A stretch of DNA of 45,960 nt from Candidatus Gastranaerophilales bacterium (GTDB lineage: Bacteria; Cyanobacteriota; Vampirovibrionia; Gastranaerophilales; Gastranaerophilaceae). Below the pieces are notes generated by a model. That model saw nothing but the letters and a program-made list of their open reading frames with translations, had not been told where the DNA came from and ran no database searches. Positions 9,036-32,704 of the stretch are shown here, one piece after another (the first letter of the stretch is position 1; every line of letters begins with the position of its first letter). The stretch covers positions 1-45,960 of the forward strand of contig CALUQH010000038.1 of the NCBI GenBank assembly GCA_944322885.1, in the 5' to 3' direction. The position numbers were made by a program, and so were the translations under genes.

Positions 9036-9093
9036 AATTCCTCTCTCTTTACTTATTATAATTTTATCAAAAATATTGCTTTTGAGTATTATG

Positions 9094-9122
9094 TTGATAA
9101 TATTATTTACATCTGTTATAAT
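9094..9122 (+). promoter_or_regulatory. Strong promoter of pilin-like gene 1
   Basis: TTGATA (9094-9099) and TATAAT (9117-9122) are exactly 17 bases apart, with TG two bases before the -10 box. This is the best promoter match I found in the window and stands 31 bases before the ATG at 9153. Confidence 0.75.
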
Positions 9123-9152
9123 AAAAATATTAATATTGAAAGGAGAGGTCGG

Positions 9153-9937
9153 ATGAAAAAAGATTTTAAAAACGTCGGGGGGGGGGCACTCTAAGCTCTA
9201 AATCTGCCTTTACCCTTGCAGAAGTTTTAATTACGCTTGGTATTATAGGTGTTGTTGCTGCTATGACTTTGCCAGCCCTGATAAATAATAAGGGAAATAA
9301 AGAATTACAGGTTCAATTTAAAAAGGCATACTCTGAAGCGGCACAGGTGGCGCAACGGTTTTATGCTGAAGAGGGAATATCTATTTCGGAGTATTCTCGT
9401 TCAGCAGGGGTGAAAGCCACAATGGAAAAATTTTTGAGTTACTATAAAGGTTTTACAAAGGTCTCTGATTTTACTTATAATGATTATGATGAAGAAACCG
9501 GACTATATAAAACTCCTTATAAGTTGTATCCCCTATCTGGAAATTCAAGTGTAAAACCGGTTTGTGATGTAAGTGGTTATAGGGCTGATGCGGGAGGAAG
9601 GATGTTTTTGTTAAATGATCCTCCACATAATGCCAATGAAAATGGTCCAATTTTGTGTATTGATATAAATGGTGAAAAATTGCCGAATAGATATGGTAAG
9701 GATTTTTTCTTATTTTTATTTACAACAGATGGTTCTCTAATCCCAATGGGTGCTTCTCATAAGAATAATATTACGAGTTCAAATTATGGGGGAAATTTTT
9801 CGGTTACAGGCTCCGATTTTTGTAAAAATACAAATAGTTCTTCTAATCAATATGCCTGTGCATATTATGCCTTAGCCGATATTCACCCGCAAAATACAGG
9901 AAAAACTTATTGGAAAGATTTTATAAATGAGAGATAA
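9153..9937 (+). CDS. Prepilin-like protein 1, out of frame at a G10 tract (phase-off or assembly frameshift)
   Basis: Type IV pilin/type II pseudopilin-like protein. ATG at 9153 has an ideal ribosome binding site (AAAGGAGAGG) and starts MKKDFKNV, then runs into ten G at 9177-9186. As written, translation stops after 13 codons. One more G (or two fewer) joins the frame to SKSA-FTLAEVLITLG, the processing site and hydrophobic helix of a prepilin, giving about 261 residues. No ATG, GTG or TTG start exists in the pilin frame before the helix; the first in-frame ATG (9263) lies past the hydrophobic core. The C-terminal globular part has IDINGEKLPNRYGKDFF, a motif shared with the other two pilin-like proteins here, and several Cys. 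It may be surface-exposed or part of a secretion or pilus machine. Confidence 0.8.
9177..9186 (+). repeat. Ten-base poly-G tract in a prepilin leader
   Basis: Ten consecutive G in an AT-rich region, within codons 9-12 of pilin-like gene 1. The length is one base short of keeping the frame (11 would be in frame, as would 8). Such tracts mutate by slipped-strand mispairing. Confidence 0.85.
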
Positions 9938-9939
9938 TT

Positions 9940-31961: not shown

Positions 31962-32704
31962 TTATAGACGTTTAGGATAATCTTTTGGAAATTCATACTG
32001 ATTTTCTTCAAGTAGCATTGTGCAACTGTGTGCGTTATCACCGCCTTTTGAGCATTGTTTAAGAAAATCCTCTCTTGTCTGATATTCTGTTCCATCCGGC
32101 ATACAGTAATATGCTCTGACCTGTTTGCTTTTGTTGTTACAGCCTCCATTTTTACAGAGAATAAAAGCATATATGTCACGTCCGAGTTCATTCGGATTTT
32201 TTTCTCCGTTTATATCGTAATAGATGTCATAGCAAAATCCTATTTTTACACTCATCTGTGAACCGTCGACAAAGCGTAAAGTTGCCATATTTTTATTAAG
32301 CAGCTGTCTTTTTTCTATTTCAAAACTTTTTACGTAAGGTTTAATATAAGTATTTAAAAAATCAAACGCAGAATCAGAACTCTCCATCTCACCTATACTC
32401 CAGCCTTCTCTGGGACCGTAATCAGCTTCTGCATAAATAAGAGTCTGATTTATAGCAGATATAAATTTTTTTAATCTGGAGCTTGCTTCTTGTTTTTTAG
32501 TATTTTGTATAACCGCAGGTATTGTAAGTGCTGCAACAATACCTATTATCCCGAGCGTAATCAGTACTTCAGCAAGTGTAAAGCCAAATTTATCCAAATG
32601 ATGTGTTATATCACTATTACTTCTTAAGTAAATAGACTTATTCAAATCCCCTGCTATATTTGACTTTTCGGGGGGGGGGCAATTCTAAGCTTTCTATTAT
32701 ACAT
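31962..32704 (-). CDS. Prepilin-like protein 2, out of frame at a C10 tract (phase-off or assembly frameshift)
   Basis: Prepilin-like gene at the end of the ATP synthase operon. ATG at 32704 has a perfect AGGAGGT eight bases upstream and reads MYNRKLRI, then ten C (32679-32670). As written, the frame ends after 16 codons. One extra C would give a run of prolines and join the frame leading to DKFG-FTLAEVLITLG, a canonical prepilin site with a leader of about 40 residues, total about 247. An internal TTG at 32645 with AGGGG nearby could start a shorter leader, so the off state may not be complete. The globular part has YDINGEKNPNELGRDIYAF and about eight Cys. It starts only 23 bases after the gamma subunit stop, with no promoter of its own evident. 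Confidence 0.8.
32670..32679 (-). repeat. Ten-base poly-C tract (gene strand) in a second prepilin leader
   Basis: Ten consecutive C on the coding strand, codons 9-12 of pilin-like gene 2; one base short of keeping the frame. On the strand carrying C, AGCTTAGA lies shortly before and GA directly after the tract, as also on the C strand of the tract at 9177-9186. Confidence 0.85.

Follow-up and report, generated by a model that had tools for sequence, protein, structure and literature searches.

The window analysed here is a 45,960-nt stretch of Candidatus Gastranaerophilales bacterium (GCA_944322885.1, contig CALUQH010000038.1), in which a prepilin gene lies on the plus strand at a DedA-HAD junction (9036-9939). 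A sigma-70-type promoter, TTGATA-17-TATAAT, is located at 9094-9122, with the -35 hexamer at 9094-9099 and the -10 hexamer, preceded by TG, at 9117-9122. It is followed by a ribosome binding site, AAGGAG (9140-9145), 7 nt upstream of the ATG at 9153. A run of ten G (9177-9186) interrupts the leader, with the G on the leading (G-rich) strand, and in this state the start codon opens only a short ORF of 13 codons, MKKDFKNVGGGAL (9153-9194, stop TAA at 9192-9194). These elements, from promoter to early closure, had been listed in an earlier note on this DNA and are read directly in the sequence.

With 11 G, or with 8, the frame reads MKKDFKNVGGGGTLSSKSA and then, past the cleavage site, FTLAEVLITLGIIGVVAAMTLP and onwards as far as 9937. 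Tracts of G8 and G11 give products of 260 and 261 aa, whereas G9, G10 and G12 give 13-16 aa; the opening at 11 G had been foreseen in the earlier note, and 8 G works too. The shifted frame has the cleavage motif SA/FTLAEVLITLG (the slash marks the cut) and a hydrophobic N-terminal helix, as do type IV prepilins and pseudopilins, and its mature pilin-like part, beginning with FTLAEVLITLG, covers 9209-9937. As had also been claimed, no start precedes the helix in this frame: in the unaltered DNA, the earliest in-frame start is the ATG at 9263, inside the N-terminal helix. Like a contingency locus, the gene therefore combines a slippable repeat within the ORF with a single length class that yields the full product.

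Structure prediction gave a helix at residues 4-56 followed by a strand-rich domain (model pLDDT 79), a predicted layout that is pilin-like in its long helix and strands. Compared with solved structures, this model had no significant match, and no solved relative was found. The [GA]/FTLAEVLITLG motif and the long N-terminal helix are shared with prepilin-type proteins of PF07963/TIGR02532 (with DUF6613 in the second copy described below), a very large family with 80 matches in the source genome.

This second copy, assigned to PF07963 and DUF6613, is encoded on the minus strand of the window (31962-32704, ATG at 32704-32702) and adjoins ATP synthase genes. Its tract is a G10 on the plus strand (32670-32679) that the gene reads as C10 (KLRIAPPPK); ten C put the frame out, and C11 or C8 would be needed to restore it. 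As for the first gene, the DedA-HAD junction is without a prepilin gene in five other species and contains a different one in another. No syntenic ortholog of the window gene was found among the compared genomes, and a homologue with 73% identity lies at another location behind an unrelated leader.

Tract-bearing prepilin genes in the genome and the genus

The source genome (1.86 Mb in 40 contigs, about 34% GC) contains 66 G tracts of at least 9 nt, against about 0.4 expected when calculated from base composition. The DNA around all 66 was examined. About 58 of them lie shortly 3' of an ATG with a ribosome site, at a spacing of some 18-90 nt, and ahead of a prepilin frame FTLAEVLITLG. The tract is read as G in about 60% of the genes (leader ...GGGG...) and as C in 40% (leader ...ELRIAPPPEK or ALRVPPPP). 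The same arrangement was found in two further species, G007 and G019, which were sampled in part.

Within the genus, for which one genome per species and the stretches around tracts were sampled with automatically chosen start codons, PF07963 matches range from 16 to 144 per genome. Tract number rises with prepilin gene number (rank correlation 0.68, or 0.87 without G022). The tract-poor species G022 and G013 have plain prepilin leaders of few codons; G022 (loci L326-L337) has 128 prepilin matches, yet only 4 G-tracts and short ordinary leaders, and is a natural contrast species for working out the requirements of the tract system. Other families of Gastranaerophilales have 0-6 such tracts per genome. 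The titles listed for the 108 stretches found to bear the DNA core described in the next section are Gastranaerophilales, uncultured bacterium MAGs and, in one case, Fusobacterium sp. CAG:439. The last (L202, FR900478.1) carries the same element and prepilins and is probably a misnamed Gastranaerophilales genome. The literature on Melainabacteria, Gastranaerophilales and Vampirovibrionia yielded no report of phase variation of this kind.

Over 23 species, 1125 of 1380 tracts (82%) are G10 and 98 are G11. The G/C runs form an isolated peak at exactly 10 (46 tracts in the stretches counted, with none of length 7), and hardly any measure 7 or 8 nt; A/T runs, by contrast, fall off smoothly. The spread of lengths across loci that is usual for contingency loci, without strictly defining them, is not seen here, and the earlier expectation of mixed lengths of 9-12 did not hold, as tracts across species are almost all exactly 10. 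A mismatch-repair defect was considered as the cause of slippage and is not supported: MutS was found in 23 of 24 species, and there is therefore no general repair defect raising slippage. In G002 and G006 (loci L162-L191 and L108), polysaccharide and radical-SAM type genes carry G tracts of about 9-15 that follow an A, T or C and show no clear replication polarity; these are ordinary contingency loci beside the prepilin set.

The frame register is just as uniform. Among 237 distinct prepilin tracts from about 20 species (G002 excluded), a shift of +1 (or -2) would open 210 and one of -1 (or +2) would open 14, while 13 are already in frame. Under random frames, the chance of finding only 13 on is P = 2e-25, although this and the other script probabilities for frame states overstate the evidence because the counts include related paralogs, which are not independent. 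The +1 shift is needed by 208 of the 216 G10/C10 tracts, and seven of the eight C11 tracts are on. In G002, prepilin tracts are 12-16 long, and all ten are off, nine of them needing -1. Both interrupted tracts, which are unable to slip (GGGTGGGTGGGGGG in L301 and GGGGAGGGGG in L125), are in frame.

One ortholog pair differs in state, being C10 and off in G007 but C11 and on in G016; the two copies share 93.5% identity across about 600 nt, and the sole indel in a 480-nt alignment is the tract. A tract length that differs between close relatives with an intact gene, another mark of contingency loci, is thus found in this family pair and not for the window gene. For 32 off/off prepilin pairs, the median dN/dS past the conserved N-terminus was 0.13. 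Judged by this ratio, the mature prepilin frames are under purifying selection, though nearly all DNA copies are off. The earlier proposal of a contingency locus for a pilin-like protein is borne out by this ratio and by the C10-off/C11-on pair in so far as it concerns a functional out-of-frame gene. The locus is, however, not a lone one, with about 58 such genes in this genome and hundreds across the genus. Two features add to that proposal: nearly all copies share the +1 register, and the tract is a DNA element of fixed replication polarity.

Strand polarity and a shared DNA core

The strand bearing the G run is constant within contigs, whichever direction the gene takes: in three genomes, 138 adjacent tract pairs include 4 sign switches. 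Both polarity switches of G007 coincide with two GC-skew sign changes, at about 315-335 kb on C1 and 616-632 kb on C2, and across three genomes the G run lies on the G-rich strand in 65 of 78 stretches. As an origin marker, dnaA was not located at a polarity switch, and GC skew was taken as the marker of replication direction in its place. The constant G strand and its agreement with GC skew therefore place the G run on the leading strand.

A DNA core of about 23 bp, TC-G10-CR-(n)-RGCT, is common to both reading directions; its copy in the window is TC-G10-CACTCTAAGCT (9175-9197, plus strand). On the G strand, the tract is flanked by TC or GC on the 5' side and by C[AG] on the 3' side, with C immediately before it in 135 of 137 cases and immediately after it in 127. 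The motif [AG]GCT follows 5-16 nt 3' of the tract in 79 of 90 and 38 of 47 members of the two reading-direction classes, compared with 0 and 3 occurrences of AGCT on the opposite side. A flank matrix built on one reading class scores the other at 6.8 bits, as opposed to -2.5 for shuffles. Leaders of the same type have flanks that resemble each other more closely inside one genome than across different genomes.

A tree of 134 mature proteins requires about 29 changes of leader type, at least 13 of them forced by well-supported branches, and polarity is retained throughout. Leaders thus act as modules bound to place and strand and not to the mature gene.

Proposed phase variation and alternative readings

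We favour, with moderate confidence and on the strength of sequence comparison, the reading that the prepilin gene of the window is phase-variable by slipped strands and belongs to a genome-wide default-off set. This reading best accounts for the C10/C11 ortholog pair, the interrupted tracts that are in frame and the purifying selection, and it agrees best with a known case in Bifidobacterium. The tract would slip by one nucleotide during replication, and ten would be the length to which tracts return, so that a frame opening at 11 (or 8) would be closed in the majority of cells and open in a small fraction. Off-by-one prepilin genes probably flicker on in only a few cells at any moment; given about 58 of them, a cell might show a small random subset of pilin-like proteins, in a sparse and combinatorial display. 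The leader could carry the switch without cost to the mature protein, since it is presumably cut off by a prepilin peptidase. The fixed G strand suggests that tract growth or stability depends on fork direction; slippage, growth or upkeep of the tract may vary with the strand copied by the fork, which would keep the G strand always leading. If true, this uncultured gut lineage has a very large phase-variable repertoire, all of it drawn from one protein family, and its duty cycle depends on how the reading frame is registered against the resting length of the tract. Because the G run is so strictly tied to the replication strand, it also becomes possible to test what determines the length at which G tracts rest, and how stable they are, in cells with mismatch repair. 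Reference annotations of Gastranaerophilales genomes likely omit or truncate dozens of surface proteins.

The nearest known case is that of the sortase-pilus genes bbr_0113 and bbr_1889 of Bifidobacterium breve UCC2003, which carry a G10/G11 tract early in the gene; at the annotated length there are two ORFs, joined by one-base slippage that was measured in vivo (PMC9187656). B. breve, too, is a gut commensal, and its G10/G11 tract likewise lies inside a pilin gene, near the beginning. It has, however, one or two clusters per genome encoding sortase pili, whereas here about 58 dispersed single prepilin genes are alike in tract length, register, flank motif and replication polarity. In Campylobacter jejuni, poly-G/C tracts range from 8 to 11 and are heterogeneous at most loci (PMC6097035), and two reports give about 30 poly-G/C genes per genome with combinatorial on/off states (PMC6097035; PMC4965091). 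Those are mostly other kinds of surface genes, while the present set is one protein family, 82% exactly 10 and about 95% off. In Neisseria gonorrhoeae, a G4 structure initiates the gene conversion by which silent cassettes vary pilE (PMC3547852). The likeness lies in G-rich DNA beside a pilin gene, an important strand orientation and many pilin variants per genome. Antigenic variation of the pilE type, which involves a G-quadruplex motif with several G runs next to a single expressed gene together with incomplete silent copies, was nevertheless rejected, as here a single uninterrupted G10 run lies inside the leader and the copies are complete genes, each with its own ribosome binding site and ATG.

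The conserved C on either border of the tract and the conserved RGCT flank are not predicted by slippage by itself, and the length distribution (1125 of 1380 at G10) is narrower than at textbook phase-variable loci. We put forward, tentatively and as a possibility we would not bet on, that the core is a sequence-specific, polarised element of about 23 bp (TC-G10-CR-n-RGCT), templated or recognised by a protein, and that a dedicated process installs it or maintains it at exactly ten leading-strand G, which would set the default-off duty cycle of the pilin repertoire in either transcription direction.

The main rival to slipped-strand phase variation is slippage of RNA polymerase. Here the DNA would stay at G10/C10, some transcripts would gain an eleventh G or C, and every pilin would be made constantly at a low level. 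The exact length of 10 preserved across species, the uniform +1 register in both reading directions and a dN/dS of 0.13 despite nearly all DNA copies being off would all fit. It leaves unaccounted for, however, both a leading-strand G run irrespective of transcription direction and the C11-on/C10-off ortholog pair, and the G002 tracts, 12-16 long, nearly all need -1 and not +1; on balance we consider it improbable. We regard as unlikely a further reading, in which the core is a small DNA element inserted or rewritten at forks (on the lagging-strand template) from a template that sets length, flanks and polarity, with frame switching as a secondary effect. It would explain the core common to both reading directions (6.8 bits against -2.5 for shuffles), the C before and after the tract (135 and 127 of 137), the isolated length peak at 10 and the forced leader-type changes, at least 13, each with correct polarity. 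However, neither a template nor an enzyme nor a target duplication was found, the core is absent from the viral contigs searched, and the flanks differ between copies and, where common, may partly reflect descent.

Programmed -1 ribosomal frameshifting on the G or C run is less credible still, even though G GGG GGG and C CCC CCC permit re-pairing after a -1 slip and -1 is the shift required in nearly all copies. No enrichment of RNA structure was seen 3' of the tract (mean z 0.12 and 0.00), the flanks are common at the DNA level in inverted orientation and not as RNA signals, and replication polarity is unaccounted for. A collapse of one base during sequencing or assembly, with a true length of 11, would yield an identical off-by-one everywhere, but is very improbable: five non-prepilin genes of the source genome carry the tract within their frame and are open at exactly G10/C10, and would be disrupted were one G missing throughout, G8, G9, G11 and C11 tracts are resolved within the same assemblies, and contig names of the SPAdes and MEGAHIT type in G007 and G019 indicate short reads. 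That the window gene is a decaying pseudogene, which the earlier note had already argued against, is hardly conceivable despite its closed reference frame, given the intact promoter, ribosome binding site and frame of 224+ aa, the dN/dS of 0.13 for family off/off pairs and hundreds of paralogs in the same state.

At the DedA-HAD junction of G021 (L301), a pure G run is replaced by GGGTGGGTGGGGGG in the prepilin leader; this sequence is G4-like and, by eye, similar to the gonococcal pilE motif. A second leader class in G007 (for example L073:906 and L077:6669) has its ATG 84 nt upstream of the tract, exactly 63 nt (21 codons) more than in the short class. Many long prepilin leaders (L019, L037, L045, L064 and others) contain in-frame dispersed repeats between the tract and FTLAEV, such as ...RGQAVISEQSSRKNKFLPLIGKVRMGF... 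or CHSEGAYPKESSQLLKGKAGLLRQKSRND..., which resemble palindromic elements inserted in frame into the portion removed from the protein.
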